A DNA stretch of 41,252 bases. Source: Rufibacter ruber. Lineage in GTDB: Bacteria; Bacteroidota; Bacteroidia; Cytophagales; Hymenobacteraceae. The position numbers and the translations under genes are program-made. Within the stretch, counting starts at the first letter, position 1, and each line of letters opens with the position of its first letter. The stretch lies in assembly GCF_001647275.1 (NCBI RefSeq), contig NZ_LRMM01000043.1, positions 1 to 41,252 on the forward strand, given 5' to 3'. Positions 15,549-34,301 of this stretch are shown here, in pieces. The notes under the pieces were generated by a model. It saw only the letters and a program-made list of their open reading frames with translations, had not been told where the DNA came from and did not search any database.

Positions 15549-16843
15549 TTATCTTTTGGCCAGCCTGATGCCGGTGAACTGCCAGCGTTTGTCTGCATGA
15601 AAGAAGTTACGATACGTGGGCCTGATATGGTTTTGCGGCGTAGCGCAGGAGCCGCCTCTGAGCACCATCTGGTTGATCATGAACTTACCGTTGTACTCGC
15701 CAATAGCACCGGGGGCGGTTTCAAAGTGAGGGTAGGGCAGGTAGCTGCTGTAAGTCCATTCCCAGGTGTTGCCCAGCAACTGGGCGGCATAGGGTTGTTC
15801 TGCGGGAAACACGGCTGGCACCGGCTGGTACCGCTCACTCTCCACAAAGTTGCCGGTTGCCAAGGGGTTAGGGTATTTCTGCGACAGTGCCTCCCATTCA
15901 AACTCAGTCAACAGCCGGTGCCCTGACCAGTTGGCATAGGCCAGGGCCTCATAGAAGCAGACATGGGTGACCGGTGCTGCCAGGTCAAGCGGCTGCAGCC
16001 CGTGCAGGGTAAACTGGAACCATTGATCCTCCTGCTGCAGCCAATAGAGGGGCGCCTGCCACTGCTGGGCCTGCACCAGTTGCCAGCCCTCTTCCAGCCA
16101 GTGCCTGAAATCAGCGTAGCCGCCGTCTTGCATGAAACGCAGGTATTCACCGTTGGTCACCGGGGCAGCCTGGGCCTCAAAGGCAGGTATAAACACCTGA
16201 TGCGCCTGTAGCTCATTGTCAAAGCAGAAGCCCTGGCCCCGGTGCCCAACGGTGTAAAGGCCTTCTGGCACGGGGAGCCATCTGTTTTGGGCTGTTTTTC
16301 AGAAAACAGGCCCAAAACAGCCGTTGCCGGACTGGGCAGGTAAGCGGGCAGCAGCGGGTTGCAGCTCAGAATGTACTTGATGTCTGTCACCAGCAGCTCC
16401 TGGTGCTGTTGCTCATGCTGCAGGCCCAGTTCCAGCACGGCGGCTAGTTCCGGCTTCTCCAGAAGCAGGGTGTCTGCCAGGACTTTTTCCATGTACTGGT
16501 CCACATGTTGGCGGTATGCGTAAATGTCTTGCAGCGGAGGTCTGGAAAGGGTGCCCCGGTCTGAGCGCGCAATGCGGCTGCCCATGCTGTTGTAGTACGA
16601 GTTAAACAGAAATGCGTACTGCGGGTGGAAGTGCTTGTAGCCGCTAACGTGGGGCTGCAGGATAAACGTCTCAAAAAACCAGGTTGTGTGCCCCAGGTGC
16701 CACTTTGGCGGGCTCACGTCTACCATGGGCTGCATCACGGTGTCTTCTGGGGTGAGGGGCGCGCAGAGTTTTTCGGTTTGCCGCCGTACCGCCCGGTAAC
16801 GGGCCAGGTACAGCTCCGGCTGGGTATTCAGGGCGTGCTGCAT
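15549..16843 (-). pseudogene. egtB: EgtB (hercynylcysteine sulfoxide synthase), split by hairpin repeat
   Basis: The two halves of an EgtB-type non-heme iron enzyme lie in different frames. The N-terminal half (ATG at 16841-16843) has the DinB-like iron-binding domain, with H52 in KWHLGHTTWFF and H143/H147 in LQHEQQHQE. The C-terminal half (to 15549) is the FGE-sulfatase fold with GHRGQGFCFDNE, LGNTWEWT, LRGGSCATP and RWQFTGIRLAKR. The N frame runs through a dispersed hairpin (16282-16320, read as AVLGLFSEKQPKT) and then goes off-frame. The native C frame resumes just after the repeat with W-L-P-V-P-E-G. The break is at the linker between domains. Either the gene is inactivated by repeat insertion, the halves are made separately (an in-frame GTG starts VPEGLYTVGH), or frameshifting restores it. 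All known catalytic-region motifs I can see are otherwise preserved. Confidence 0.85.
16282..16320. repeat. dispersed hairpin repeat, copy 10, inside egtB
   Basis: CTGTTTTGGGCTGTTTTTCAG and AAAACAGGCCCAAAACAG. This is the only copy wholly inside a coding region. It coincides with the frame break between the two EgtB domains. Confidence 0.9.
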
Positions 16844-18939: not shown

Positions 18940-21369
18940 TTAGCTTGACTTCTTTTTAGTGGCAGGCTTGGTGGTGGTTCCTTTTTTGGCGGCTGCTTTT
19001 TTGGCCGGGCCTTTCTTGGCGGCGGCTGGGGTGTCTGCCGTGGCCGCTTTCTTCTTGAAACCTCCCCGCGCAGGTTTGTCTGGCGTCTTCTCTGCCAAGT
19101 CCAGACACTGCTCCAGCGTCAGTTCTGCCGGCTCTTGCCCCTTGGGGATTTTCACGTTCTTCTTGCCCACCACAATGTAAGGCCCAAAACGACCATTCAG
19201 CACTTGCACGTCCGGGTTCTCCGGGAATGATTTGATCAGCTTCTCGGCATCTGCCTTGCGTTTGGCCTCAATAAGGGCTACGGCTTCCTGCTCTGTCACC
19301 AGCAGCGGGTCCAGGTCTTTGGGCAGCGAGTAGAACTTGCTGTTGTGCTGAATGTAGGGGCCAAACCGGCCAATGGCGGCTTTCATGTCCTTGCCTTCGT
19401 ACTCACCTACCACGCGCGGCAACTTGAATAATTCCAAGGCTTGCTCTAAGGTGATAGACTCCAGGAACTGTCCCTTGCGCAGGCTGGCATAGGCCGGTTT
19501 GGCATCTGTGCCCTCTACCTCTTCCCCTAGCTGCACATACGGCCCAAAGCGCCCCAGCTTGGCAATCACTTTCATGCCAGAGACCGGGTCAACGCCTAGT
19601 TCGCGGGCCCCGCTAACGGTAGACCTTTCAACGTTGGCACTGCTTTCAATGGTTTTATGAAAACTTGAGTAGAAGGTGTCAATCATCTTGTCCCACTGCT
19701 TCTTACCGCTGGCTATCTCATCAAATTCTTCTTCTACCCTGGCGGTGAAGGAATAGTCAATCACACTTTCAAAATGGGAGACCAGAAAATCAGTGACCAC
19801 CATGGCAATGTCAGTGGGGAACAGCTTGGCTTTTTCGGCCCCGGCCATCTCTGTTTTCTGCTGCGCCGTGATCTGGTCTTTCTCCAGAGTAAGTACCTGG
19901 TAAGGCCGCTCTTTCCCTTCTCTATTGTCTTTTTCCACGTAGCCGCGTTTTTGAATGGTAGAGATGGTAGGCGCGTACGTAGACGGGCGCCCAATGCCCA
20001 TTTCCTCCAGTTTTTTCACCAGGCTCGCCTCTGTGTAGCGCGGGGCTGGGCGGCTGAAGCGCTGGGTGGCCTGCAGGCGCTGCAGTTGCAGCGCCTGGCC
20101 TTCTGAGAGCGGAGGCAACATGCCTTTCACATCATCATCGGCCAGTTCCTCGTCATCTGTTGACTCTGAGTACACTTTCAGGAAACCTTCAAAGCGCACC
20201 ACTTCGCCGGTGGCGATGAGTCTCTCTGGCTGGCCGCTAATGCTGATGGTGGCGGTGGTTTTCTCTATCTCGGCGTCTGCCATCTGCGAGGCAATGGCGC
20301 GTTTCCTGATCAGGTCATAGAGGCGCTGCTCATTGCGGTCATCACTCACGAGGGTGGCGGCAAAGTCAGTGGGCCTGATAGATTCGTGGGCCTCCTGCGC
20401 CTGCTTTGATTTGGTCTTGTACTGGCGGGTCTTCACGTAGTTGTCCCCAAAACTGCGGGCAATTTCGGCGGCAGCCGCCGTCATGGCATCCTGAGACAGG
20501 TTCACCGAGTCTGTACGCATGTAGGAGATCTTACCGGCCTCATACAGGCGCTGCGCCACGGTCATGGTCTGGGCAACAGAGAAGTAAAGTTTGCGGCTGG
20601 CCTCCTGCTGCAGGGTGGAGGTGGTGAAGGGCGGGGCAGGGGTGCGCTTGGTTGGTTTTTTCTCCAGGCTCTCAATGGTGAAGGCCGCGCCAATGCAGCG
20701 CCTGAGGAAATCCTCTGCCTCTTCACGGGTTTTGAAGCGGGTGTTCAACTCTGCCTCCAGTCTCTTGCCACCGGCGTCAAACTGCGCCACCACCTTAAAG
20801 GCCGACTCCGCTTTGTGGCGCTCAATTTCCCGCTCCCGCTCTACCACCAGGCGTACCGCCACTGACTGTACACGGCCGGCGGAAAGGCCGGTTTTGATTT
20901 TCTTCCAGAGCACCGGTGACAGCTCAAACCCCACCAGACGGTCCAGCACGCGCCGTGCCTGCTGGGCGTTCACCAGGTTCACATCAATGGTGCGCGGGTT
21001 CTCAATGGCGTTTAAAATGGCATTCTTGGTGATCTCCCTGAACACAATGCGGCGGGTTTTGGCCTCGTTCAGGTTCAGGGCCTCGGCCAGATGCCAGGAA
21101 ATGGCCTCCCCCTCGCGGTCCTCATCAGAGGCGAGCCAGACCACCTCTGCCTCTTTGGCCAGTTTCTTAAGTTGGGAGATGACCTCTTTTTTGTCAGAGT
21201 TTATGACATAAGTTGGCTTGAATCCGTTTTGAATATCAATTGCGTTGTTATCTTTGGGGAGGTCGCGCACGTGTCCGAAGCTGGATTTTACAATAAAATC
21301 CTTGCCTAGATAGCCTTCAATGGTCTTGGCCTTGGCCGGCGACTCCACAATAACTAAGTTTTTTATCAT
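18940..21369 (-). CDS. topA: DNA topoisomerase I
   Basis: This type IA topoisomerase relaxes negative supercoils. The ATG at 21367-21369 gives MIKNLVIVESPAKAKTIEGYLG, the TOPRIM start. The TOPRIM acidic motif is WLASDEDREGEAISWHL. The catalytic Tyr is in ISYMRTDSVNLS. ATYAPTISTIQKRGYV and the rest of the cleavage domain follow. The C-terminal region has three repeats of the form GRFGPY(V/I), which replace Cys zinc fingers. The tail is Lys/Ala/Pro-rich (AAAKKGTTTKPATKKKSS), a disordered basic extension likely to increase DNA affinity. About 809 residues is normal for the phylum. It stands alone; a hairpin repeat lies between it and the sirtuin gene. Confidence 0.96.
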   Translation of the reverse strand: MIKNLVIVESPAKAKTIEGYLGKDFIVKSSFGHVRDLPKDNNAIDIQNGFKPTYVINSDKKEVISQLKKLAKEAEVVWLASDEDREGEAISWHLAEALNLNEAKTRRIVFREITKNAILNAIENPRTIDVNLVNAQQARRVLDRLVGFELSPVLWKKIKTGLSAGRVQSVAVRLVVEREREIERHKAESAFKVVAQFDAGGKRLEAELNTRFKTREEAEDFLRRCIGAAFTIESLEKKPTKRTPAPPFTTSTLQQEASRKLYFSVAQTMTVAQRLYEAGKISYMRTDSVNLSQDAMTAAAAEIARSFGDNYVKTRQYKTKSKQAQEAHESIRPTDFAATLVSDDRNEQRLYDLIRKRAIASQMADAEIEKTTATISISGQPERLIATGEVVRFEGFLKVYSESTDDEELADDDVKGMLPPLSEGQALQLQRLQATQRFSRPAPRYTEASLVKKLEEMGIGRPSTYAPTISTIQKRGYVEKDNREGKERPYQVLTLEKDQITAQQKTEMAGAEKAKLFPTDIAMVVTDFLVSHFESVIDYSFTARVEEEFDEIASGKKQWDKMIDTFYSSFHKTIESSANVERSTVSGARELGVDPVSGMKVIAKLGRFGPYVQLGEEVEGTDAKPAYASLRKGQFLESITLEQALELFKLPRVVGEYEGKDMKAAIGRFGPYIQHNSKFYSLPKDLDPLLVTEQEAVALIEAKRKADAEKLIKSFPENPDVQVLNGRFGPYIVVGKKNVKIPKGQEPAELTLEQCLDLAEKTPDKPARGGFKKKAATADTPAAAKKGPAKKAAAKKGTTTKPATKKKSS

Positions 21370-21521
21370 ACAGGAAAAGAGGCGGGCAGTGCCCAAAAAT
21401 TTTTCAAAGATGAAGTAATTTTCTGAGACAATGCAAACCGGTAGTGAAGGAGACGGTTTCTCAGTAGGTACTTAAATATATACCAAGACTCTGTAAAAAG
21501 GTTTTTTAGCCATCTAGTAGA

Positions 21522-22006
21522 ATGAAGAATCTTTTATTGATGCGGCACGCCACGGCGGCCGAAAAAGAAACGGGGCAGCAGGATGCTGACCGGGAACTGA
21601 CTCTTTTTGGGGAGCGCCAGGCCGGCGAGATGGGCATCAAGCTGAAGAGCCTGGGGCTGGTGCCAGAGCTGGTTCTGTGCAGCCCCGCCGTACGCACCCG
21701 CGCCACCGTTGAGAACCTCATGGCCGAGGTGGGGCGCAACCTGCCTTTGCAGCTGGAGCAGGTGATCTACCATGGCTCTGAGACTGAGATCTGCGTCTTG
21801 TCTCAGATGTTTCTGATGAGGTAGACACTCTGCTGCTAGTGGGGCACAATCCGGTGATCTCTTTTCTGGCCGCCATGCTCCAGCATGAAGGGCAAGAGCC
21901 TGTAAACTTTCTACCGGCCACCGTGGCCCACCTGCATTTCACCGGCATGACGTGGGAGCATTTGCGGGCGGGCACCTGTAAACTGCAGGCTCTCTACACC
22001 GCGTAG
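21522..22006 (+). pseudogene. sixA: SixA-like phosphohistidine phosphatase, frameshifted
   Basis: This is a histidine-phosphatase-superfamily gene of the SixA type, which dephosphorylates phosphohistidine domains. The first part reads MKNLLLMRHATAAEKETG with the RHG-type catalytic motif, then DRELTLFGERQAGEMG and LVLCSPAVRTRATVE, and stops early at about 21822. In another frame the rest of the family continues without a break: DLRLVSDVSDEVDTLLLVGHNP, containing the second catalytic His, to LQALYTA and a stop at 22004-22006. The switch lies near 21786-21797 and is consistent with loss of one base (GAGAT-CTGCG). A sequencing error cannot be excluded. A hairpin repeat begins right after the stop. 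Confidence 0.82.
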
Positions 22007-22008
22007 CC

Positions 22009-22054
22009 TTTCTGTTTTTTGGCCTGTTATCTTGAAAACAGGCAAAAACAGAAA
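22009..22054. repeat. dispersed hairpin repeat, copy 13
   Basis: TTTCTGTTTTTTGGCCTGTTA and GAAAACAGGCAAAAACAGAAA with a disturbed loop. It follows the frameshifted sixA stop and precedes the parA leader. Confidence 0.8.
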
Positions 22055-22127
22055 TGGATTGGCGTTTTCTTTTGTAGTTTAGCGCAGTTTCAGCGGTGAA
22101 AAATTTATTTTAGATTTTCTGCAACCT

Positions 22128-22877
22128 ATGCCAGCAACCATCGTATCGGTCATCAACCAAAAAGGGGGTACGGGTAAAACCACCACTACCATTAACCTGG
22201 GAAGTGCCCTCCAGAGACTGGGAAAACGCGTTTTGTTGATCGATCTTGACCCCCAAGCCAACCTCTCTTATTCCTTAGGTATCACGGAGCCCGCCTGTAC
22301 GCTGGCCGAGGTCTTTTCCGGGCAGCAGAAACTCACTGACTGCCTGCAGGAGAGAAACGGTCTCTGGGTGGCCCCGGGCTCCAATGAACTGGTTGATATA
22401 GAGATTTCACTGGTAAGCCAGAAGGAGCGGGAGCTGTTCCTGCAGCACATGCTGCGGGAGGTGGAAGGCTTTGACTACATCCTGATTGACTGCCCGCCTT
22501 CCCTGTCCCTGTTGACCTTGAACGCGCTGGTGGCCTCTACTGAGGTGGTCATTCCTTTGCAGATGGAAGTGCTTACCCTGCAGGGGTTGGGGCAAATCCT
22601 GAACACGGTGGCGCAGATCAGGGAAACGCTGAACCCTAACCTGCGGGTGAAGGGCATAGTGGTGGTCATGTTTGACAAGCGCCGCAAGTTGAGCTCTGAG
22701 ATTGAAGATTACCTGAAGGAGAACATTGATGAATACATCTTCCACCAGCGCATCAGGCTGAACGTCAAACTGGCAGAGGCGCCTTCCTTTGGGCAAAGTG
22801 TGCTGGATTATGACGCATCTTCTTATGGGGCCAAAGATTACCTGGGGTTGGCCAAAGAATTTGTATCAATTTCTTAG
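22128..22877 (+). CDS. ParA/Soj-family ATPase, solitary, beside chemosensory operon
   Basis: This is a 249-residue ParA-type ATPase of the kind that forms ATP-dependent dimers on DNA and positions cargo. It begins MPATIVSVINQKGGTGKTTTTINLG, with the deviant Walker A KGGTGKTT at about 12-19. LLIDLDPQANLSYSLG (Walker A'), YILIDCPPSLSLLTLNAL (Walker B region) and VIPLQMEVLTLQGLGQI follow. No ParB gene lies beside it and I see no parS-like cluster, so chromosome partition is unlikely for this copy. It lies 132 bp upstream of the giant chemoreceptor, on the same strand. Lone ParA homologues in other chemotaxis clusters (PpfA in Rhodobacter, ParC in Vibrio) position signalling arrays, which is the likely role here (inference). 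Confidence 0.9.
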   Translation: MPATIVSVINQKGGTGKTTTTINLGSALQRLGKRVLLIDLDPQANLSYSLGITEPACTLAEVFSGQQKLTDCLQERNGLWVAPGSNELVDIEISLVSQKERELFLQHMLREVEGFDYILIDCPPSLSLLTLNALVASTEVVIPLQMEVLTLQGLGQILNTVAQIRETLNPNLRVKGIVVVMFDKRRKLSSEIEDYLKENIDEYIFHQRIRLNVKLAEAPSFGQSVLDYDASSYGAKDYLGLAKEFVSIS

Positions 22878-23009
22878 CAAGGGAAACTTTCAGAAGTCTT
22901 ATAATATTAGTAAATTGCGTGGTGGGCAGATTTGCAGCGCCACCGCATAAAAATTAAATTGGCATCTTTTGCCGCAGCAGATACATAACGCTCCTCAATC
23001 ATAGATAAG

Positions 23010-26000
23010 ATGGCTTTAGGTAAGAATCTAAAACTCAACAAGGATAAACTCATTGGGAAGGCAGAGGCTGGAGCTCCTGCTGGAGACCCGCAGGAAGGCG
23101 CCCCTTCCACTCCTGCAGAGACCCCTCCTGCAGAACAGCCCAAAGAAGATGAGACCCTTGTAGTAGAGGTGCCGTTGGCAGATGTAAAAGTCTCTGCCAC
23201 CAAAGCCTCTGCTGGCAAGGAAACCCGTGCAGAAGGAAAAGGAAAAGAAATGGAAAAGGGTGTGCCAATGGCCACAAATTCAATCGCCCGCATGTCTCAT
23301 GACCAGGCAAAGAACCAGGCCAGGAAAAGTGATTCGCCCAGGCTGTCAACAGAGAACCAGGACTCTGACTATATTAACGAGCAGTTGAACCGCGTGCTCT
23401 ACGCGCTGGACGCTTTTAAGAAGGGAGACGTTTCGGTTCGTCTGACCAAGCAGAACAACGACATCTTCTCTGAGATTGCCGAAGCCTACAACTCCATGGT
23501 GGAGATGATTGGCGGGGTAGGCGGCGAGGTGTCCCGTATCTCTAAAGTAGCCGGGGTGGAGGGGAACCTGAAAGCCCGTGCCTCAGCAGAGAACGCCTCC
23601 GGTTTCTGGAAAGACATGATCAACAATATCAACGGCCTGGTTGACTCCATTGCCGTTCCGGTATTAGAGGTGGGCAAGGTATTGAAGAACATCTCCCGGG
23701 GTAATCTGGATGAGACGTTCCAGATTCCCGTGTCCGGTGACTTCAAGGTCATGGCCGAAACCATCAACCGTACCATTGACAACCTGAACCTGTTTGCCGG
23801 TGAGGTAACCCGGGTGGCGCTGGAAGTGGGTACCGAAGGTAAACTGGGCGGACAGGCGTCTGTACCAAACGTGGCCGGTATCTGGAAAGAGCTGACCGAT
23901 AATGTGAACGCCATGGCCTCTAACCTTACCTCTCAGGTAAGGGATATTGCCAAAGTAACCACGGCCGTGGCCCAGGGTAATCTGGACCAGAAGGTAACAG
24001 TAGACCTGAAAGGGGAAATGCTTCAGCTGAAGGAGAACATCAACCAGATGGTGGACTCTTTGAACATCTTCGGGGATGAAGTAACCCGGGTGGCCCGTGA
24101 AGTGGGTACTGAGGGTAAACTGGGAGGCCAGGCGAAGGTGCCGAACGTGGGCGGGGTATGGAAAGACCTCACCGACAACGTGAACACCATGGCCAGCAAC
24201 TTAACCTCGCAGCTCCGTGACATTGCCAACGTGGCCACCGCGGTGGCGAAAGGGGACTTGACCCAGAAGATCACAGTAAATGTGAAAGGTGAGCTGGCCG
24301 AGCTAAAAGACAACCTGAACCAGATGGTGGACAGCCTTAACATCTTCGCGGATGAGGTGACCCGGGTAAGCCGTGAGGTGGGTACCGAAGGTATCTTGGG
24401 TGGGCAAGCCAACGTGCCAAAGGTAGCCGGTATCTGGAAAGAGCTGACCGACAACGTGAACTCCATGGCCTCCAACCTGACCCTGCAAGTTCGTGACATC
24501 GCCAATGTTGCGACTGCGGTGGCGAGAGGTGACCTGAGCCAGAAGATCACGGTAAATGTAAATGGCGAGCTTCTTCAGCTGAAGGACAACCTGAACCAGA
24601 TGGTGGACAGCCTTAACATCTTTGCCGGTGAGGTGACCCGTGTGGCACTGGAAGTGGGTACCGAGGGTAAACTGGGCGGACAGGCATCTGTGCCAAACGT
24701 GGCAGGTGTTTGGAAGGCCCTAACTGACAATGTGAACTACATGGCCTCCAACCTGACGCTACAAGTTCGTGACATTGCCAACGTAGCAACTGCTGTTGCC
24801 CGTGGTGACCTGAGCCAGAAGATCACGGTGAACGTGAAAGGCGAGTTGGCCGAGCTGAAAGACAACCTGAACCAGATGGTGGACTCGCTGAACATCTTCG
24901 CCGGTGAGGTAACTAGGGTGGCCCGTGAAGTGGGTACCGAAGGTAAACTGGGCGGCCAGGCATCGGTGCCAAACGTAGGCGGTGTTTGGAAAGACCTGAC
25001 AGAAAATGTGAACTACATGGCGTCTAATTTGACGCTGCAAGTACGTGATATAGCCAATGTGGCAACTGCGGTGGCTCGCGGAGATTTGAGCCAGAAGATC
25101 ACTGTAGGGGTGAAAGGCGAACTGGCCGAACTGAAGGACAACCTGAACCAGATGGTGGACAGCTTGAACATCTTCGCCGGTGAGGTGACCCGGGTGGCGC
25201 TGGAAGTGGGTACCGAGGGTAAACTGGGCGGACAGGCATCTGTGCCGAACGTGGCAGGAACCTGGAAGGCGCTCACTGACAACGTGAACTCCATGGCCTC
25301 CAACCTGACGCTGCAGGTGCGTGACATCGCGAATGTGGCGACCGCGGTGGCGAGAGGTGACCTGAGCCAGAAGATCACGGTGAACGTGAAGGGCGAGCTG
25401 GCCGAGCTGAAAGACAACCTGAACCAGATGGTGGACAGCTTGAACATCTTCGCCGGTGAGGTGACCCGCGTGGCGAAAGAAGTAGGAACCGAAGGTAAAC
25501 TGGGCGGCCAGGCCAATGTGCCAAACGTAGGTGGTGTTTGGAAAGACCTCACCGAGAACGTAAACTACATGGCCTCCAACCTGACGCTGCAGGTGCGTGA
25601 CATTGCCAACGTGGCGACCGCGGTGGCGAGAGGTGACCTGAGCCAGAAGATTACGGTAGATGTGAAAGGCGAGCTCCTTCAATTGAAGGACAACCTGAAC
25701 CAGATGGTGGACTCGCTCAACATCTTCGCCGGTGAGGTAACCAGAGTGGCCCGTGAAGTGGGTACTGAAGGAATCTTAGGTGGTCAAGCCAGCGTGCCTA
25801 ATGTAGGTGGCGTTTGGAAAGACCTGACTGAGAACGTGAACTACATGGCGTCCAACCTGACGCTGCAAGTGCGTGATATTGCCAACGTGGCAACTGCCGT
25901 TGCCCGTGGTGATTTGAGCCAGAAGATTACCGTTGATGTAAAAGGCGAATTAGCCGAACTGAAGAATAACCTGAACCAGATGGTGGACTCGCTCAATATT

Positions 26001-28466
26001 TTTGCGGACGAGGTAACCAGGGTAGCAAGGGAAGTGGGTACCGAAGGTAAACTGGGCGGACAGGCTTCTGTGCCAAAAGTACGCGGTACCTGGAAAGAGT
26101 TGACGGACAACGTGAACTCCATGGCCTCCAACCTGACGCTGCAGGTGCGTGACATCGCCAACGTGGCGACTGCCGTTGCCCGTGGTGACCTGAGCCAGAA
26201 AATCACGGTTGATGTAAAAGGAGAGTTCTTAGAATTGAAGAACATCCTGAACCAGATGGTGGACTCCCTGAACATCTTTGCCGGTGAGGTGACCCGGGTG
26301 GCGCTGGAAGTGGGTACTGAGGGTAAACTGGGCGGTCAGGCATCTGTGCCGAACGTGGCAGGAACCTGGAAGGCGCTCACTGACAACGTGAACTCCATGG
26401 CCTCCAACCTTACCAGCCAGGTACGTGACATCGCCAATGTGGCGACCGCGGTGGCGAAAGGGGATTTGAGCCAGAAGATGACGGTGAACGTGAAGGGTGA
26501 GATTCTTCAGTTGAAAGACATCCTGAACCAGATGGTGGACTCGCTGAACATCTTCGCCGGTGAGGTGACCCGTGTGGCGCTGGAAGTGGGTACAGAAGGT
26601 AAACTGGGTGGCCAGGCAAGCGTACCAAATGTGGGCGGTGTTTGGAAAGCCCTTACTGATAATGTAAACACCATGGCCTCCAACCTGACCCTGCAGGTGC
26701 GTGACATTGCCAATGTTGCAACCGCGGTGGCGAAAGGCGACCTGACCCAGAAGATCACGGTGAATGTACGCGGTGAATTAGCCGAGCTGAAGGACAACCT
26801 GAACCAGATGGTGGACAGTTTGAACATCTTCGCCGGTGAAGTAACCCGGGTGGCGTTGGAAGTGGGTACTGAGGGTAGACTGGGCGGACAAGCCAAAGTG
26901 CCGAATGTAGCCGGTGTTTGGAAAGCCCTGACTGACAATGTAAACGTAATGGCCTCTAACCTGACTACTCAGGTACGGGGAATTGTGAAAGTAGTAACCG
27001 CGGTGTCTAAGGGTGACTTGACCCAGAAACTGACCCTGCAAGCCAAAGGCGAACTCGCTGATCTGGCAGATACCATCAACAGCATGGTGGAAGACCTGAA
27101 CCGTTTAGCGGGTGAGGTTAGCCGTGTGGCCAGAGTGGCGGGTGTGGAAGGGAAACTGACAGAGCGTGCCTCTGTACCAGGTGTGAGCGGAAGCTGGAAA
27201 GAACTGGTGGACACTTTGAACGACCTGTTGGAGTCAATTGTAACGCCGGTTCTGGAAGTGTCTCGCGTAGTACGTTCCATCTCTGAAGGTGACTTGACTC
27301 AAAAAGTAGAGATTCATACCGCAGGTGATATTTTGGCCATGTCAAACGCCTTGAACCTGGCGGTAGACAACCTCAACGCGCTCTTAGGAGAAATCAACGA
27401 CAGCTCACTGATTGTAGGAAGCTCTTCTGAGGAAATGGCCGCCAAAGGGCTTGAAATGAACCGCGTAACGGTAGATGTGGCCCTGGCCATGCAACAGATG
27501 GCAGAGGGTGCGCAGAACCAAGCCTTGAAAACAGACCAGGCCTTTAAGCTGATTGAGGAAATCATGAAAGCGACCAAAGAAACGGCGAACAAGGCAGACG
27601 TGGTAAACCGTTCGGCGGTAATGGGTGAGGAGACTTCCCAGTTGGGACTGAAAACAGTGGCCGAGGTGGTGCGCAACATGGAGGAGATTTCTTCTTCTGC
27701 CGCGCTGACTGCCAAAACCATTGAAGTATTAAGTACCCGCAGCCAGGAAATTTCCAAGTCCTTGGGCGTGATCACCGACATTGCGTCCCAAACCAACTTG
27801 CTGGCCTTGAATGCGGCCATTGAGGCGGCCCGTGCGGGTGAGGCAGGACGTGGTTTCGCGGTGGTAGCTGAAGAGATCCGTAAGCTGGCAGAAGGTTCCA
27901 GAAAATCAGCCAGTGAGATTGCCACCCTGGTAGAAGATGTGAAGAAAGATACCTCTTCTGCCGCTGCTGCGATTGCGACCATGGAAGGCCGCGTATTGAA
28001 AGGAAAGAATGCTACGTTTGAAGCATCTGGCGCCTTTAAGAATATTGCGACTTCCAGTGGTGAAACCCTTCGCAGTGCCCAGGACATCTTAGAATCTACT
28101 GAGGTTCAGAAATCGTCTATTGGAGATGTAGTGAAGTACGTGGAAGAAGTGGTGGCCATTGCCGAGCAGACAGCCTCTGGTACGCAACAGGTAGCAGGAA
28201 CTGCCAAGCAATTGTCGGCTTCCATGCAGGAACTGACCGCTTCCAGCCAGCGTCTGAATGACATTGCAGATGACCTGCAGGTGGGTATTTCGGCCTTCAA
28301 GCTGATTAACGGGAACATTGTTTTCCCTAACCGGAACAACCGCAAGCTTTCTGCCGTGCCGGCTGCGCGCAAGCGTGCTTTTATAGCGCCTGAAGATGAC
28401 ATAGACTCAGATTTGGCCAAGAAGGCAGTAGCCAAAAAAACAGGTAAATCCAGAGGACAAGACTAA
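23010..28466 (+). CDS. giant soluble poly-HAMP methyl-accepting chemoreceptor
   Basis: This 1818-residue receptor has no transmembrane segment or signal peptide. Residues 1-120 are a Lys/Pro/Ala/Glu-rich disordered leader. Residues 121-172 are a first divergent HAMP. Fourteen units of exactly 92 residues follow (173-1460), each made of a HAMP-like linker ([17 protein letters not shown]...WK.LTDNVN) and a HAMP ([19 protein letters not shown]...[13 protein letters not shown]). Units 2-13 are near-identical and the first and last are divergent. Residues about 1461-1780 form the coiled-coil MCP signalling domain, with the conserved tip [22 protein letters not shown]. The C-terminal 40 residues are basic and end [10 protein letters not shown], with no NWETF-type tether. 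Its stop overlaps cheW by 1 bp. Similar HAMP/linker chains occur in fungal Nik1 kinases and FrzCD-like soluble receptors. Input is unknown. Confidence 0.95.
23802..27113 (+). repeat. 12 tandem 276-bp units inside the chemoreceptor gene
   Basis: Twelve consecutive units of exactly 276 bp (92 codons) run from the Glu codon at 23802 to 27113. They are flanked by divergent units of the same length at 23526-23801 and 27114-27389. Protein identity between units is very high, while many third-codon positions differ. Units beginning VALEV usually carry WKALTDNVN, and units beginning VAREV or VAKEV often carry WKDLTENVN. Units 4-5 and 6-7 look like a duplicated pair, which suggests growth by unequal exchange. 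Confidence 0.95.
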
Positions 28467-28969
28467 TGGAGTCACAGAATATTCGTGATAAAAAAGAGGC
28501 GGCGGTTGAGGTAAAGGTGCATCTCATTGTCTTTAAACTAGGCACTGAGGAATACGGGGTACGCATTGACCAGGTAAAGGAGGTTACCATTACCCCAGAG
28601 ATCACCCGCATGCCCAAAACCCCTTCCTTCATCAAGGGGGTTTCTAATATAAGAGGGGATATTATTGCTATTATGGACCTGGAGGAGCGCTTTAACATTG
28701 AGCGCTCCACAGCAGGCACCCAAAGCAAACACACCTATACTCTTGTTATGGAGGCGAAGGATTATACCATGGGCTTTATTGTCCGGGAGGTGCCGCAGTC
28801 TCTGTCACTCCCGGTTTCAAGCATTGACAAAGCCCCTTCCTTCATTCAGGACATTAACATCAATGAGAACTTCATTGAGGGAATTGGAAAAATTGATGAC
28901 CGTCTGATCATAGTGTTAGACATCTACAAAATCCTGACCTCTGAGGAAATCATGGAACTGAAATCATAG
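28466..28969 (+). CDS. cheW: CheW adaptor
   Basis: This 167-residue CheW-fold protein couples the receptor to the kinase CheA. It has the two SH3-like subdomains of the family: LIVFKLGTEEYGVRIDQVKEV, then TPSFIKGVSNIRGDIIAIMDLEERFN (the RG..I..I.D signature), and later FIEGIGKIDDRLIIVLDIYKIL. The ATG overlaps the receptor stop codon (TAATG, 28464-28468), so translation is probably coupled. The N terminus has about 15 charged residues before the fold. No extra receiver domain is fused. Confidence 0.95.
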   Translation: MESQNIRDKKEAAVEVKVHLIVFKLGTEEYGVRIDQVKEVTITPEITRMPKTPSFIKGVSNIRGDIIAIMDLEERFNIERSTAGTQSKHTYTLVMEAKDYTMGFIVREVPQSLSLPVSSIDKAPSFIQDININENFIEGIGKIDDRLIIVLDIYKILTSEEIMELKS

Positions 28970-28993
28970 TGCTTATTTCTGAACTAGACTATT

Positions 28994-29374
28994 ATGGAAA
29001 TTACTGAGAAAAAAAGAATACTGATTGTAGATGACTCGTTCTACATGCGCACTATGCTTAAAAACATGTTGCTGGATGCGGGTTATGATGTAGTGGGCGA
29101 GGCACCAGACGGTAAGACTGCCCTGGAAATGGCCCGCGACAAGGTTCCGGATCTGGTTACCTTAGACGTTATTTTGCCAGATAACACCGGGCTTGATGTA
29201 TTAAAGGGCATCAAACAAGACAACCCAGAGATCAAGGTGGTAATTGTAAGCGCCGTGGGGCAGGAAGTCATCATGAATGAAGCCGCTGAGTACGGGGCCT
29301 TGCATTACATTATCAAGCCTTTTTCTGAAGACAAAGTGTTGGAGGCATTGACCAATGCATTCAAAGAAGAATAA
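28994..29374 (+). CDS. cheY: CheY-like single-domain response regulator
   Basis: This 126-residue protein is a stand-alone receiver domain. All active-site residues are present: D13/D14 in ILIVDDSFYM, the phospho-acceptor D58 in LVTLDVILPDNTG, S86 in VVIVSAVG and K108 in YIIKPFSED. There is no DNA-binding or output domain. It sits between cheW and cheB with short gaps (24 and 28 bp), so it should be the phosphorylated output of this CheA. Which machinery it binds cannot be read from sequence; no flagellar genes are in the window. Confidence 0.95.
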   Translation: MEITEKKRILIVDDSFYMRTMLKNMLLDAGYDVVGEAPDGKTALEMARDKVPDLVTLDVILPDNTGLDVLKGIKQDNPEIKVVIVSAVGQEVIMNEAAEYGALHYIIKPFSEDKVLEALTNAFKEE

Positions 29375-29402
29375 CAGTTCATTTTAGTACCGCCACAAAC
29401 CA

Positions 29403-30530
29403 GTGCCGCTAACGCCTACACGTAAAATCAGAGTCTTGATTGGAGACGCATCTGTACGCTCCAGATTGGTGCTATTGGGCATGATCAATGCCGATCCCAA
29501 TCTGGAGGTGGTAGATACTGCCCAGTCCAGAGATGAATTGCTGACCAAGGCAATGTCCTACCAGCCTGATGTGATTGTGACGCATAGCGGCTTAACCTTG
29601 AGCGGACATTTACCTTCTTTTACTTCGGTATTAACTACTGAATCTTCCCTGCTTTTGCTGGTGTCTGCTGAAATGGCGCTCCAAAGCCATCCTGCCTCAA
29701 ACGTGAAAGCGTTTCAGGAATCAGAGCCGGAAGCTGTGAGGAATGGCAAAAAGCGCCCCGGATATAAGGAGGAGCTGATGGCTAAGCTAAAGGAGTTTGG
29801 GGGAAGGTTCACAGGCAGCCAAAACGGCTTGAGGAAAGAGAAAAGGAAGGAGCATTTTTCTATGCCCACTTCTACTTCAGCAGTTGATTTATTTTCTTAT
29901 TCTGCGCTGAATAAACCGCTTCGTCTGGTGGTGATAGGGGCTTCTACCGGTGGGTCAAAGGCGGTTGAATGTTTGATCAGAGAGTTAGAAGTAGTACAGC
30001 CAACAGCAGTGCTGGTAGCCTTGCATATGCCGGAGAAATTCACCAAACGTCTGGCCAGAAGGTTGCAGAAACTCACGCATTGGCGCGTGGAAGAAGGCTA
30101 TGAAGGCATGGCTGTTACCCCGCAGACCATCATTATAGCTCCGGGAGGAATGGATATGCTGGTTAGGCGTACGCCGCTCAGGCCAAACCGCCTCTTCCTG
30201 GAAATTATGCCGGCCACTGCTGTGGAGTCACCTTCTGTGGATCTGCTCATGCAGTCTGCCGCCGCCTGTGCCCGGGCGCAGGTGCTGGGGGTGATTATGA
30301 CCGGCATGGGAAAAGACGGTTCTGCCGGGGCCTGTGCCATTCAGGAGAATGGCGGAGTGGTGATTGCGCAGAATGAAGAGACGTCCTCTATTTTCGGGAT
30401 GGCCAAGAATGCGATTGAACGCGGGGTGGTGAATGGGGTTTTCCCGTTGGGGCAGATAAATACCATCATCAATAGATTTGTGAGTGATAGACACCTGAGC
30501 CACGGGCTCTATTGTAATTTGACAGGATGA
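29403..30530 (+). CDS. cheB: CheB-type methylesterase with degenerate receiver domain
   Basis: This 375-residue protein has the CheB two-domain layout. The C-terminal methylesterase (about 170-365) is intact: S181 in VVIGASTGGS, H208 in LVALHMPEKFT and D305 in GVIMTGMGKDGS. It should demethylate or deamidate receptor Glu/Gln sites. The N-terminal domain (about 9-95) still aligns as a receiver but has lost its chemistry. The acidic pair reads GDAS instead of DDS, and the phospho-acceptor position in YQPDVIVTHSGLT is His61. A Lys/Glu-rich linker of about 60 residues joins the domains. The start is GTG at 29403, 28 bp after cheY. Its stop overlaps the cheA start by 4 bp (ATGA). Control by CheA phosphorylation is therefore unlikely. 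Confidence 0.92.
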   Translation: MPLTPTRKIRVLIGDASVRSRLVLLGMINADPNLEVVDTAQSRDELLTKAMSYQPDVIVTHSGLTLSGHLPSFTSVLTTESSLLLLVSAEMALQSHPASNVKAFQESEPEAVRNGKKRPGYKEELMAKLKEFGGRFTGSQNGLRKEKRKEHFSMPTSTSAVDLFSYSALNKPLRLVVIGASTGGSKAVECLIRELEVVQPTAVLVALHMPEKFTKRLARRLQKLTHWRVEEGYEGMAVTPQTIIIAPGGMDMLVRRTPLRPNRLFLEIMPATAVESPSVDLLMQSAAACARAQVLGVIMTGMGKDGSAGACAIQENGGVVIAQNEETSSIFGMAKNAIERGVVNGVFPLGQINTIINRFVSDRHLSHGLYCNLTG

Positions 30531-32158
30531 AATCGAGGGATCAGGAATATAAAGAGATATTTATAGCTGAGGCTCTCGAATACTATGATGCGCTGAACCG
30601 GCACATTAGTGATCTGGAGAAAAGCCCTGAAGATGAACAGCTGTTGGCTGAGATCTTCAGGCTGCTGCACAACCTGAAGGCCAACGCAAAGGCCATTGGG
30701 TATGTTTCTATTGCAGATGTGTCCCATAAACTGGAGACGGCTTTCGGGTTGATCCGGAACAAGGAGCTGAATTTTAGTGATGAGGTGGTGACGGTGCTTT
30801 TTGATGGCATTGATATGTTGGGTGAGATGATCACCAACATTGACAGCCCCAAAGAGGTGGAGCCAAGCCCGGCCCTGCTCCGCAACCTGGACATCATTGT
30901 CAATTCAATTTCAGAGAATACGGCAGAGCTGTCAAAGGTGCAGAAGTACTATACTTCTAAAAACCTTTCGCTCTCTGACCTGATTTATATACAGATAAAG
31001 AAGCTGGACCACCTGCTGAACCTGGTGGGCGAGTTGATCATTGACCGGGACCGGATTGTCTCCATCAGCAAGGAGCTGGACAATGAGGATCTGAAAAACG
31101 TAAGCGCCCACCTGTACCGCATCACAGATGAGCTGCAGTACAGTGTGATGGATGCCCGTCTGGTGAACGTGGGTTCTTTGTTTAACAAATTTCCGCGTAT
31201 AGTACGGGACATAGCCGTGGCAGAGAAGAAGGAGATCAACCTGGAGATTTCAGGGCAGGACATTCAGATTGACCGGAATATCCTGCAGATCATCACAGAT
31301 TCACTGCTGCACCTTATGCGGAACGCCATTTCGCACGGGATTGAGAAAGCAGACATGCGCAAGAAACTGAAGAAGACGCCGCAGGGCAATGTCTTCCTTT
31401 CTGCCCAGAATGACCGTGACACGGTTATTCTGAAACTGACCGATGACGGCAAGGGCATTGACCAGCAGGAAGTAAGGAAGGCCATTGTGCAGCGCGGTTT
31501 CTTGCCGGCTGAGGCCGCTGAGGATCTGCGGGAGTCTGAGGTGCTTTCTTATCTCTTTGAACCGGGGTTTTCACTGGCCAAAGAAGTGACAGAAGTGTCA
31601 GGGCGCGGGGTGGGGCTGGATGTGGTGAAGAATGCCATTGACTCCATTGGCGGAAGAATACGGGTAGACTCTAAAAAAGGCGAAGGCACCACCTTCACCC
31701 TTTTCCTGCCTACCTCTATTGCCGTTAAAGGGGCGCTGCTGTGCCAGGTAGAAGAAAACTTCTATGCTATTCCGTTGATGCATACAGACTCAGTGGTGGC
31801 GCTGCCATCTGTAGAGCTGCATGAGGTGGGCGACCTGCTGGTGGCCGATATCAATGGGGAGACCATTACCATTGTGTACCTGAAGGAGCTCTTTAATTCT
31901 GAGCTACATGAATACAGCGGTAAGAAGTCTAAGTTAGAGGGTGATGTGCAGAACATCATTATTGTGACCTACAATAACCGTAAGCTGGGTTTGATTGTTG
32001 ATAAACTGCTGAGACAGCAGGATATTGTCATCAAAGCCTTAAGCAAACCAGTGAATACGATTGAAATTTATGCGGGGGTAACCTTGTTGGGCTCAGGCAA
32101 AGTGTGCCTGGTGCTGGATGTGGCGGCTATCACCCGTTATTTTATTGCCAGGAGATAA
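30527..32158 (+). CDS. cheA: CheA histidine kinase lacking P2
   Basis: This 543-residue chemotaxis kinase has domains P1-P3-P4-P5. P1 is at about 1-105, with the phospho-His at H48 in IFRLLHNLKANAKAIGY; the usual G-S-A after the Lys reads A-N-A. No P2 response-regulator docking domain is present, only a short linker. P3 dimerisation follows (LNLVGELIIDRDRI), then P4 ATPase with N-box HLMRNAISHGIE, DDGKGID and GRGVGLDVVKNAI, then P5 (CheW-like, VKGALLCQVEENFYAIPL) to the C terminus. The ATG overlaps the cheB stop by 4 bp. Loss of P2 and the compact size suggest a dedicated kinase with few partners. The substrate should be the neighbouring CheY. Confidence 0.94.
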   Translation: MKSRDQEYKEIFIAEALEYYDALNRHISDLEKSPEDEQLLAEIFRLLHNLKANAKAIGYVSIADVSHKLETAFGLIRNKELNFSDEVVTVLFDGIDMLGEMITNIDSPKEVEPSPALLRNLDIIVNSISENTAELSKVQKYYTSKNLSLSDLIYIQIKKLDHLLNLVGELIIDRDRIVSISKELDNEDLKNVSAHLYRITDELQYSVMDARLVNVGSLFNKFPRIVRDIAVAEKKEINLEISGQDIQIDRNILQIITDSLLHLMRNAISHGIEKADMRKKLKKTPQGNVFLSAQNDRDTVILKLTDDGKGIDQQEVRKAIVQRGFLPAEAAEDLRESEVLSYLFEPGFSLAKEVTEVSGRGVGLDVVKNAIDSIGGRIRVDSKKGEGTTFTLFLPTSIAVKGALLCQVEENFYAIPLMHTDSVVALPSVELHEVGDLLVADINGETITIVYLKELFNSELHEYSGKKSKLEGDVQNIIIVTYNNRKLGLIVDKLLRQQDIVIKALSKPVNTIEIYAGVTLLGSGKVCLVLDVAAITRYFIARR

Positions 32159-32191
32159 GTGCGGTAGGAAACATTAAATTAAGAGCCAGCT

Positions 32192-32815
32192 ATGGAGCTT
32201 CAAGTAAATGAACTAGAGCGGGATATCATCAAAGAGATTCTCAACATAGGCTTAGCAAGGGCGGCAGATTCGTTTGCAGTCATTGCCAAAGACCGGGTAC
32301 TCCTCAAAGTGCCGGACTTGCAGTTGATGGAGGCCGAGGAACTCCTGAAAATTGTACGGGCCTATGAGAAAACGCACACGTTTATTCAGTCAGATATAAA
32401 AGGGGAACTGAACGGGGCCACCCTTATGCTCTTCTCTGATGCCCATATAGAGCAGCTTTCCAAAGTTTGCCTGGGAATGAAATTAACGCCAGGTGAACCG
32501 CTCACAGAGATGCAGGAGTCCCTGCTGCTGGAGGTGAGCAACATCATCACCGGCGCCTTGGTGACCCAGCTGGCCAATATCCTCAAGTCAAATATCTACG
32601 GCTCGCCGCCGGTGGCACCCAAACATGACATTGCCATGTCATTGCGTGATATTTTCACTGACCACCCGCTTTTCCAACCGCTGGTGTTTACGGTCATCAC
32701 ACAGTTCACCCATAACTCACAACTGGTGGAGTTGCCGCTGCTGCTGTTCTTTGATACCAACACCTTTATTAAAATTCTGGAGATCATCAGGTCCTATAAT
32801 TTCCTTACCAAGTAG
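32192..32815 (+). CDS. cheC: CheC-family CheY-P phosphatase
   Basis: This 207-residue protein belongs to the CheC/CheX/FliY family, which dephosphorylates CheY-P. Both pseudo-symmetric active-site motifs are visible. The first is D11-x3-E15-x2-N18 (DIIKEILNIG), followed by a Pro 23 residues later. The second is S110-x3-E114-x2-N117 (ESLLLEVSNIITG). Both retain Glu and Asn, so two functional sites are expected, as in CheC rather than the one-site CheX. It ends the chemosensory operon: 33 bp after cheA and followed by a strong terminator at 32848-32874. No cheD, the usual CheC partner, is present. It should terminate the signal from this operon's CheY. Confidence 0.85.
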   Translation: MELQVNELERDIIKEILNIGLARAADSFAVIAKDRVLLKVPDLQLMEAEELLKIVRAYEKTHTFIQSDIKGELNGATLMLFSDAHIEQLSKVCLGMKLTPGEPLTEMQESLLLEVSNIITGALVTQLANILKSNIYGSPPVAPKHDIAMSLRDIFTDHPLFQPLVFTVITQFTHNSQLVELPLLLFFDTNTFIKILEIIRSYNFLTK

Positions 32816-32847
32816 AAAATACTCCCGTTCAACTATCTTATGATAGA

Positions 32848-32874
32848 AAAAGAGCCGCCCCCAGCGGCTCTTTT
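32848..32874 (+). terminator. terminator of the chemosensory operon
   Basis: 11-bp arms AAAAGAGCCGC / GCGGCTCTTTT with a short C-rich loop, 33 bp after the cheC stop. It separates the che operon from the polyamine genes. Confidence 0.88.
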
Positions 32875-32894
32875 CATTTACATAATAGTTGATC

Positions 32895-32939
32895 TCCGGC
32901 GTAGGCGTGTTTTTGTAAAAACAGCCCTAAAACGCCGGG
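32895..32939. repeat. dispersed hairpin repeat, copy 14
   Basis: Outer arms are changed to CCGGCG and CGCCGG, which still pair with each other. The inner part is GTTTTTGTAAAAACAGCCC. Like copy 12 it shows compensatory outer-arm change. It lies between the cheC terminator and the speD-speE gene. Confidence 0.75.
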
Positions 32940-33017
32940 GGCGGGTAACTTTTCATTCCAGTATCTTTTTTGTTGTTTTGCGCGTCTGAAATATAAATAG
33001 TAACTGAATAACCGCTT

Positions 33018-34301
33018 ATGGACGCCTTAGGAAGACACATCCTGGTAGAGTTCTACAACTGTTCCCCGGAGTTAATGAATGATGTGGTGCACATTGAAAA
33101 CAGCATGGTAGAAGCCGCTGAAACCGCAGGTGCCACCGTCATCAACAGTACGTTTCACCACTTCTCCCCCTATGGCGTCTCTGGCGTGGTGGTGATCCAG
33201 GAAAGCCATCTGGCCATTCACACCTGGCCAGAGTACGGGTATGCCGCAGTTGACCTGTTTACCTGTGGGGAGACCGTAGACCCGTGGGTTTCCTATAATT
33301 TTCTGAAAGAAGCCTTCAAAGCCAGCCACGGCTCCTCCATGGAGTGCCGCCGGGGGCAGCAAAGTCTGCTCAAGCGAACAGATTTCACAGTAGAGTCCCG
33401 GGACACAGGCCAGGTGGTGGCGCCCATCCCTACCATTACCCGTGATGTCTGGTTTACCGAGCGGGACGAGAACATTGCCCTTTCGCTAAAGCATTCAGGC
33501 AACCAGCTATATAAAAAGCAGAGCCCGTACCAGAAGGTGGAGGTGTTTGAGACGCTGGCTTACGGCAACATGCTCACCCTGGATGGTATGGTGATGTGCA
33601 CCCAGAAAGATGAATACGTGTACCATGAAATGATTACCCACGTACCGGTCTTCAGTCATGGGAATGTGAAAAGAGCCCTGGTGATAGGCGGGGGAGACGG
33701 GGGAACCGTTCGCGAATTGCTTCGGCACGAGGCTATAGAAGAGGTGGTACTGGTAGAAATTGACGAACTGGTCATTGAGGCCTGCAAACTGCACCTGCCT
33801 GAGACCGCCAGCGCTTTCAACCACCCCCGGTTGAACCTGCTGGTGGCAGACGGTATTCAATACATCCAGGATTGTCCAGATGCGGCCTTTGACCTGATCA
33901 TAGTAGACTCAGCAGATCCGGTAGGCCCGGGCGAAGGCCTTTTTACGGCCGCTTTCTACGCTGAGGTATACCGCTGCCTGACCTCTAACGGAATCATGAT
34001 CACACAAAGTGAGTCGCCGCGCTTCAACACCAAGGTGTTTGTAGAGATCTATGACACTTACAAAAGCATTTTTGGCGCAGAGAAAGTACACTGCTACCTG
34101 GCGGCCATCCCCACCTACCCAACCGGTACCTGGAGCTTCTCTTTCTGTTCTAAAGGAGAGGTGCAGCCTAAGAACTTTGACCAGACGGCGGCGGCGGCGT
34201 TCTCCCGCTCACAAGGGTTGCGCTATTACAATGAAGACATCCATACGGCTGCCTTTGCGCTGCCAAACTTTGTTAAAGACTTACTTTCTTCAAAAGCCTA
34301 A
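33018..34301 (+). CDS. S-adenosylmethionine decarboxylase-spermidine synthase fusion
   Basis: One 427-residue protein joins two polyamine enzymes. Residues 1-130 are a SpeD-type AdoMet decarboxylase. The self-cleavage site E62/S63 in [12 protein letters not shown] would generate the pyruvoyl group, with H68 and C83 ([10 protein letters not shown]) in the expected places. After a linker containing [11 protein letters not shown], residues about 143-427 are spermidine synthase. These include [20 protein letters not shown], the SAM-binding loop [14 protein letters not shown] and the acidic active-site segment [14 protein letters not shown]. Decarboxylated SAM made by the first half is the donor for the second. 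Autoprocessing should release a 62-residue beta chain and leave SpeE attached to the alpha chain. Agmatinase starts 4 bp downstream, so the pair could run from agmatine to spermidine. Confidence 0.92.

Follow-up and report, generated by a model that had tools for sequence, protein, structure and literature searches.

The window analyzed here, 41,252 nucleotides of the Rufibacter ruber contig NZ_LRMM01000043.1, encodes a chemoreceptor in which a long chain of HAMP domains leads to the signaling domain of a methyl-accepting chemotaxis protein (MCP). Sequence comparisons confirm it as a soluble MCP with 29 consecutive predicted HAMPs, a real and well conserved feature. We slightly favor the reading that it is the sole chemoreceptor of its cell, located in the cytoplasm and forming an array that would be positioned by an adjacent ParA-type ATPase (che-ParA) and built on a rod of HAMPs some 80 nm long. 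Both ingredients, poly-HAMP chains and soluble receptors positioned by ParA, have precedents, and chains of up to 31 HAMPs have reportedly been described; new are the combination, the family-wide single-receptor setting, the exchange between PAS and HAMP domains and the stepwise variation of rod length. In the open-licence literature we found no published account of this receptor or of a poly-HAMP rod and a ParA-positioned soluble receptor in one protein. The system bears on the role of HAMP chains beyond signal relay and on what soluble chemoreceptors without a sensor domain detect.

The receptor and its HAMP array

The receptor gene and the parts of its product are as follows.

23010..28466, + strand: soluble poly-HAMP chemoreceptor, 1818 residues (single open frame)
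23010..23054, + strand: N-terminal peptide of 15 residues, proposed to dock on and activate ParA (near-invariance, co-occurrence with che-ParA)
23055..23363, + strand: hypervariable low-complexity tail of ~100 residues (sequence comparison)
23364..27383, + strand: HAMP array, residues 119 to ~1458, a leading HAMP followed by 14 HAMP_2/HAMP units (profile models, anchors)
27396..28268, + strand: MCP kinase-control hairpin, residues 1463-1753 (2ch7 alignment, MCPsignal)
28305..28463, + strand: C-terminal tail of 53 residues, basic with a net charge of +6 (sequence composition)

When each half of the array was compared with hidden Markov models (HMMs), all 29 scored at E ≤ 0.01 against a HAMP model: 15 were of the HAMP type (PF00672) and 14 of the HAMP_2 type (PF18947), the two Pfam types taking turns along the chain. 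The weakest match was the first half (residues 119-172, E 0.0022), which lies under the Pfam cut-off. One anchor motif is found 13 times, in exact 92-residue steps, between residues 259 and 1363, and an HMM made from 12 of the receptor's own units recovered 14 full units. The initial annotation, made from the sequence alone, had proposed about 29 HAMP-type modules of two alternating types in a strict 92-residue period, and all three points were borne out. At the DNA level, Tandem Repeats Finder reported a 276-bp period with 11.5 copies and a score of 3144, beyond chance. The HAMP assignment does not depend on Pfam alone, since a solved fragment of a poly-HAMP histidine kinase (9trk) gave an ungapped alignment to 158 residues of the array (211 bits). 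The NCBIfam Aer2 model also matched 14 stretches of the receptor, with 359 bits against a cut-off of 1200 and therefore below it.

The MCP signaling domain was detected at residues 1536-1716 (E 1.4e-38; 132.9 bits versus a curated Pfam cut-off of 34.6), and the hairpin at 1463-1753 pairs at equal length with residues 8-298 of 2ch7, a Thermotoga maritima-type MCP chain of the 44-heptad class. Two matches to a methylation-site pattern lie at residues 1722 and 1736. No membrane segment was found in the receptor, whose peak 19-residue hydropathy of 1.35 stays under the membrane-helix threshold of 1.6. The Pfam scan of the chain gave no other sensor family (ATG17_like, GatB_Yqey and SpoIIID were reported without any stretch passing singly) and no kinase or receiver domain. 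No hidden membrane or ligand domain was seen in the hydropathy profile or the Pfam scan, and the earlier description of a soluble MCP lacking both stands.

The array is conserved and not of recent origin. Identity averages 84% (protein) and 78% (DNA) over the 66 pairwise comparisons of 12 units, with a median dN of 0.106, a dS of 1.03 (64 pairs with valid dS) and a dN/dS of 0.109, indicating that the units are kept by purifying selection while their silent sites are near saturation. Recent slippage was rejected as the origin of the array on the unit DNA identity of 78% and the dS of 1.03, and an assembly fault on the 8- to 15-unit orthologs in 65 intact named loci. Across 61 receptors, mean column identity over four units was 90%.

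These orthologs belong to the family Hymenobacteraceae (order Cytophagales), as assigned from locus names; 80 named loci were kept out of 173 encoding a relative, and units were counted in the 65 intact receptors left after dropping 12 cut by contig ends and three with interrupted frames. Unit number was as follows (number of receptors in brackets).

Rufibacter: 14 (7), 12 (2)
Sabulibacter: 13 (1)
Pontibacter: 8 (4), 9 (1), 10 (4), 11 (21), 12 (1), 14 (1)
Adhaeribacter: 11, 14, 15 (1 each)
Botryobacter: 11 (1)
Hymenobacter: 8 (2), 10 (16), 12 (1)

Chain length thus ranges from 8 to 15 units between species and changes only by whole 92-residue steps, in agreement with the adjustable length that had been suggested for the window receptor; a protein match from Hymenobacter (P0107, 1159 residues) has seven. 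When the units of nine Rufibacter loci and one Sabulibacter locus were compared with those of the window, units 1-3 and the last two best matched the same end positions by DNA in 10/10 loci and units 10-12 mostly did so, while units 4-9 often matched other positions, suggesting that units are gained and lost in the middle of the array. Interrupted receptor frames, either real or due to sequencing error, were seen in Pontibacter harenae (L016), Pontibacter silvestris (L019), an Adhaeribacter metagenome-assembled genome (L039) and L121 (genome G324).

An MCP match was present in 204/204 family genomes searched. Exactly one was found in 202 of them and two in G064 and G108, so that one-receptor systems are close to universal in the family; the window receptor is likewise the sole MCP of its genome. 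The family offers a natural graded series of 8 to 15 units, mostly without a second MCP and both with and without ParA, in which simple genetics should be able to tell apart the effects of rod length, ParA docking and sensing.

Structure prediction agreed with a HAMP chain in pattern but at low confidence. AlphaFold models of four units alone and of a similar stretch with 61 aligned segments had predicted local distance difference test (pLDDT) values of 46.5 and 41.2, respectively, too low for a usable fold. In each of them, connectors 8 to 12 residues long separate helices of 34 to 39 residues. Counting two HAMP layers per helix and, from the predicted helix lengths, a rise of ~2.7 nm per HAMP, the 29 HAMPs would form a rod of ~80 nm, to which the hairpin would add ~22 nm. 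Since the baseplates of known cytoplasmic arrays lie ~30-35 nm apart (PMC3964821, excerpt), a far longer layer is predicted here.

Proposed positioning by ParA through the N-terminal peptide

The gene upstream of the receptor encodes the proposed positioning partner.

22128..22877, + strand: dedicated ParA-type ATPase (che-ParA), ending 132 bp ahead of the receptor gene (Pfam AAA_31, 5e-53)

The best solved relatives of che-ParA are ParA/segregation ATPases, and it is 39% identical to the Soj-like ParA of the same genome, which is adjoined by a ParB-like gene (judged by eye). A tree of 39 ParA sequences was built from 13 of the 47 family ParAs encoded beside peptide-bearing receptors, five outgroup sequences, two receptor-distant copies and 19 best or second ParAs from these or other genomes. 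In it, the 20 chemotaxis-linked ParAs form one clade (support 100/97) and the other 19, including the Soj-like copy, fall outside, some on long branches. The clade takes in the two receptor-distant copies (G277, G220), whose genomes contain peptide-bearing receptors.

The first residues hardly vary among the 47 peptide-bearing family receptors, with a mean entropy of 0.21 bits at residues 1-16 versus 2.81 at residues 17-80. Five K/R and one D/E give the first 17 residues of the window receptor a net charge of +4; that of residues 1-120 is -2. Scoring of 85 receptors (15 of 100 rows were dropped, 12 for contig ends and three for interrupted frames), with ParA counted by adjacency within the family and genome-wide in the outgroup, gave 54 with both peptide and che-ParA, 30 with neither, one with the peptide only (G438) and none with ParA only. 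We take these patterns as evidence, good yet short of conclusive, for the peptide as the ParA contact. In genera g4 and g6, represented by seven whole genomes, the best matches to che-ParA reach 40-41% (two were placed in the ParA tree), and the receptors begin like those of Hymenobacter where seen. In the window's genome, the ParB-like protein likewise opens with a basic stretch and LGRGLNALI, loosely reminiscent of LGKNL...KLI in the peptide.

A precedent exists in Rhodobacter sphaeroides, where the soluble MCP TlpT is encoded beside the ParA homolog PpfA in a che operon and PpfA positions the TlpT cluster via the TlpT N-terminus, the proposed ParA contact, thought to be ParB-like (PMC3964821, excerpt). 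TlpT has 567 residues and shares its cell with TlpC and membrane receptors (same excerpt), whereas the receptor described here has 1818 residues and 29 HAMPs, is the sole MCP of its genome and comes from another phylum. Binding through a positively charged, disordered N-terminus has been shown or suggested for partners of ParA-type ATPases (PMC10241942, excerpt).

Under the favored reading, receptors would be packed tip-first onto a baseplate of CheA and CheW, with the peptide at their far ends. ParB docks on Soj and stimulates it. The peptide may act likewise on nucleoid-bound che-ParA, as proposed for TlpT and PpfA, and the array would thereby be positioned on the nucleoid and shared between daughter cells. 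The HAMP chain would be a parallel dimeric rod joined to the hairpin, keeping a long distance between the kinase layer and the docking end and relaying, or itself generating, a two-state HAMP switch. If so, ParA positioning of soluble arrays would extend to Bacteroidota. The initial annotation had the layout of the receptor right but missed the adjacent ParA, the N-terminal peptide, the sole-MCP status and the PAS-containing relatives described below.

Several observations weigh against this reading. The intact Hymenobacter receptors from named loci (19/19) start differently, and TopA directly adjoins them with neither the peptide nor a ParA detected at the locus; Hymenobacter keeps the array and the system, so that the function of the array, whatever it may be, does not require ParA. 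When kinship is taken into account, the association of peptide and che-ParA reduces to three independent pairs on supported branches only and is not significant (sign test, p 0.25). The peptide pattern was fixed after the sequences had been viewed, and the genome-wide rule for outgroup ParAs was chosen after adjacency had left 3/60 rows discordant, L122 and L130 being discordant by adjacency and concordant only with the genome-wide count. Receptor G438 has a peptide-like start without che-ParA. The likeness of the peptide to ParB is a loose one. Finally, given the low pLDDT values, the dimer, the rod and its length are inferred.

Relatives and the role of the HAMP chain

To place the receptor outside its family, 291 genomes of the order were sampled, of which 112 matched a Fulvivirga receptor (P0096), the matches including poly-HAMP kinases. 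An MCP of the receptor's kind was found in 19 of the 20 outgroup stretches read and was absent from one. The MCP has a single 92-residue unit in 17 of the 19, near which tblastn detected CheW (14/17), CheY (14/17), CheA (14/17) and CheB (11/17). All eight of these 17 that were scanned with Pfam carry 2 to 8 PAS domains, one HAMP_2 and an MCP domain, indicating that relatives encoded in such operons have PAS domains where Hymenobacteraceae have the HAMP array. Four of the PAS-type Cytophagales receptors (L124, L130, L137 and L138) resemble the window receptor in having a kindred N-terminal peptide, a ParA of the same clade and che genes alongside, and differ in their 2 to 8 PAS domains and single HAMP_2 instead of an array.

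The other two outgroup MCPs, L120 and L121 (G424 and G324), come from other families and are poly-HAMP receptors that lack both the peptide and an adjacent ParA. In L121, the frame that was counted starts after an in-frame stop, and the score of neither peptide nor ParA stands because the piece preceding the stop also begins without the peptide. In an earlier tree of 60 rows, which carried long-branch warnings, both grouped among the Hymenobacteraceae receptors; transfer or shared origin is possible.

Because PAS domains are present only in relatives, the input to the window receptor would have to come from the rod itself, through ions, crowding or strain, or from ParA or the nucleoid. It is possible, if less probable than the positioned array, that the HAMP chain is the sensor, as has been proposed for the fungal kinases Nik1/Os-1, and responds to ionic strength, osmolarity or crowding, with serial units sharpening or summing the response (the initial annotation had suggested a sensor of osmotic, mechanical or crowding state); such a sensing rod is compatible with ParA positioning. 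The alternating architecture is that of hybrid and fungal kinases, which are 57-67% identical among the 120 matches listed, and the likeness to group III-type chains drawn in the initial annotation is upheld. HAMP repeats are an osmosensing switch according to the title of Meena et al. 2010, the array occupies the PAS position of the relatives, and with no other MCP in the genome the receptor needs some input. Yet the Aspergillus kinase TcsC requires, for its hyperosmotic response, the 208 N-terminal residues that precede the HAMPs (PMC11253588, excerpt), so HAMPs alone may not suffice, and congeners differ almost two-fold in unit number (8 to 14 in Pontibacter), a spread that a tuned sensor might not tolerate. 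A passive spacer between docking end and kinase layer, with input from the ParA state, the nucleoid or nothing at all, seems doubtful to us: length does shift by whole 92-residue units while the array ends stay in place in the 10/10 Rufibacter and Sabulibacter loci, but a column identity of 90% and a dN/dS of 0.109 look like more than a spacer requires, and a plain coiled coil would serve. Neutral drift of unit number by unequal recombination, with only the end units needed, would explain the mixed middle units and the variable numbers within genera; we consider it very unlikely, since every intact receptor from the 65 named family loci has at least eight units, even though 17 PAS-type relatives manage with one.

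The basic C-terminal tail raises a different prospect, that the array is tethered to DNA directly, as is FrzCD of Myxococcus xanthus, and not through ParA. A positively charged tail binds FrzCD to the nucleoid (PMC5716589, excerpt), and Hymenobacter, which has no ParA at the locus, has C-tails of about twice the length and charge (median 114 residues, +13; 13/19 measured) of those in Rufibacter (9/9 measured) and Pontibacter (30/32), which have 50-52 residues and charges of +6 to +7. Hymenobacter may therefore have exchanged ParA for direct binding to DNA, although the swap is not clean, because ParA-bearing genera also have basic C-tails: those of Adhaeribacter (1/3 measured; +10) and Botryobacter (+9) are intermediate, with 66-67 residues. 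Since, in addition, the window receptor has a short C-tail and a net charge of -2 in its N-tail, and direct tethering would leave ParA and the peptide without a role, we find this explanation unlikely. Bolder still, and in our judgment quite unlikely as a whole, is the picture of a family that steers by one receptor whose HAMP rod has replaced ligand sensors, is anchored to the nucleoid by ParA and reads the internal mechanical or ionic state instead of an outside ligand, its length changing in 92-residue steps, with a longer, histone-like DNA-binding tail having replaced ParA in Hymenobacter.

Comparison with other known systems shows partial likenesses. Aer2 of Pseudomonas aeruginosa is also a soluble MCP with consecutive HAMPs (PMC3570549, excerpt), but its solved poly-HAMP comprises three units and its sensor is a heme-based PAS domain (according to a cited title), whereas here there are 29 HAMPs and no PAS. 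Several HAMPs form the sensing part of the fungal group III kinases Nik1/Os-1/TcsC (PMC11253588, excerpt), which end in histidine kinase and receiver domains in place of the MCP tip and separate CheA found here. FrzCD is a soluble, nucleoid-associated receptor with HAMPs between its tail and signaling domain (PMC12077210, excerpt); it differs in having two HAMPs and in binding DNA directly by a positively charged N-tail (PMC5716589, excerpt). The initial annotation also overlooked that long HAMP arrays are not unique: hybrid and fungal kinases in our protein search carry 14 to 27 such 92-residue units and HAMP number alone is thus no record. The fungal poly-HAMP proteins P0017, P0016 and P0002, with 24 to 27 units or ~50 HAMPs, exceed every receptor seen.

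Chemosensory genes, adaptation and output

The receptor gene is followed by a run of chemosensory genes.

28466..28969, + strand: CheW, overlapping the receptor stop codon by 1 bp (Pfam CheW, 5e-32)
28994..29374, + strand: CheY-type response regulator (Response_reg, 3.2e-28)
29403..30530, + strand: CheB methylesterase (CheB_methylest, 2.8e-51)
30527..32158, + strand: CheA kinase with Hpt, dimerization, ATPase and CheW domains (Pfam)
32192..32815, + strand: CheC/CheX-type CheY phosphatase (CheC, 1.3e-10)

The order TopA (minus strand), ParA, MCP, CheW, CheY, (CheB), CheA, CheC was found in the Rufibacter, Sabulibacter, Pontibacter, Adhaeribacter and Botryobacter loci that were long enough. Among the family loci, CheW, CheY and CheA were present in 80/80, CheC in 79/80 and CheB in 61/80, with CheB undetected by tblastn in the other 19. 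CheB evolves fast (29-56% identity where found in relatives), and its front part gave no Pfam receiver match and is without the usual phospho-acceptor Asp, while its catalytic motifs are kept (both judged by eye). The three CheR domains of the genome all lie on other contigs. Adaptation looks reduced in view of the CheB front without phospho-acceptor, the loci without detectable CheB and the location of CheR elsewhere.

As to output, a flagellar or type IV pilus motor was rejected because flagellin and PilT over the cut-off were found in 0/16 genomes of the genus, with one weak sub-cut-off PilT match. GldL was present in 16/16, leaving the gliding motor of the type IX secretion system (T9SS) as, at a guess and by exclusion, the likeliest target of CheY; if true, the system is a candidate chemosensory input to that motor. 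The CheY-like domain of Flavobacterium PorX binds GldL in two-hybrid assays, and a phosphorylation-blocking change abolishes the binding (PMC10951265, excerpt). Speaking against such a target, T9SS direction control in Flavobacterium has been placed at the GldJ-GldK interface, and GldLM simulations gave no sign of direction switching (PMC12239597, excerpt); moreover, GldL also serves secretion, and a CheY-GldL link is without support in our data. The GldJ-GldK study and the secretion role of GldL keep the assignment at the level of a guess.

Promoter and terminator scans of positions 21400-33100 gave numbers near those of shuffled sequence (12 versus 9.0 and 8 versus 11.9, respectively), and upstream inverted repeats gave nothing of use. 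Elsewhere in the window, positions 33018-34301 encode a fusion of S-adenosylmethionine decarboxylase with spermidine synthase, and an agmatinase-like gene comes next. Two overlapping frames at 15549-16843 resemble two parts of one EgtB-like protein and lie beside an EgtD-like gene at 14524-15534 (judged by eye). A short 15-bp repeat with 3.1 copies occupies 18981-19027, at the 3' end of the topoisomerase I gene.

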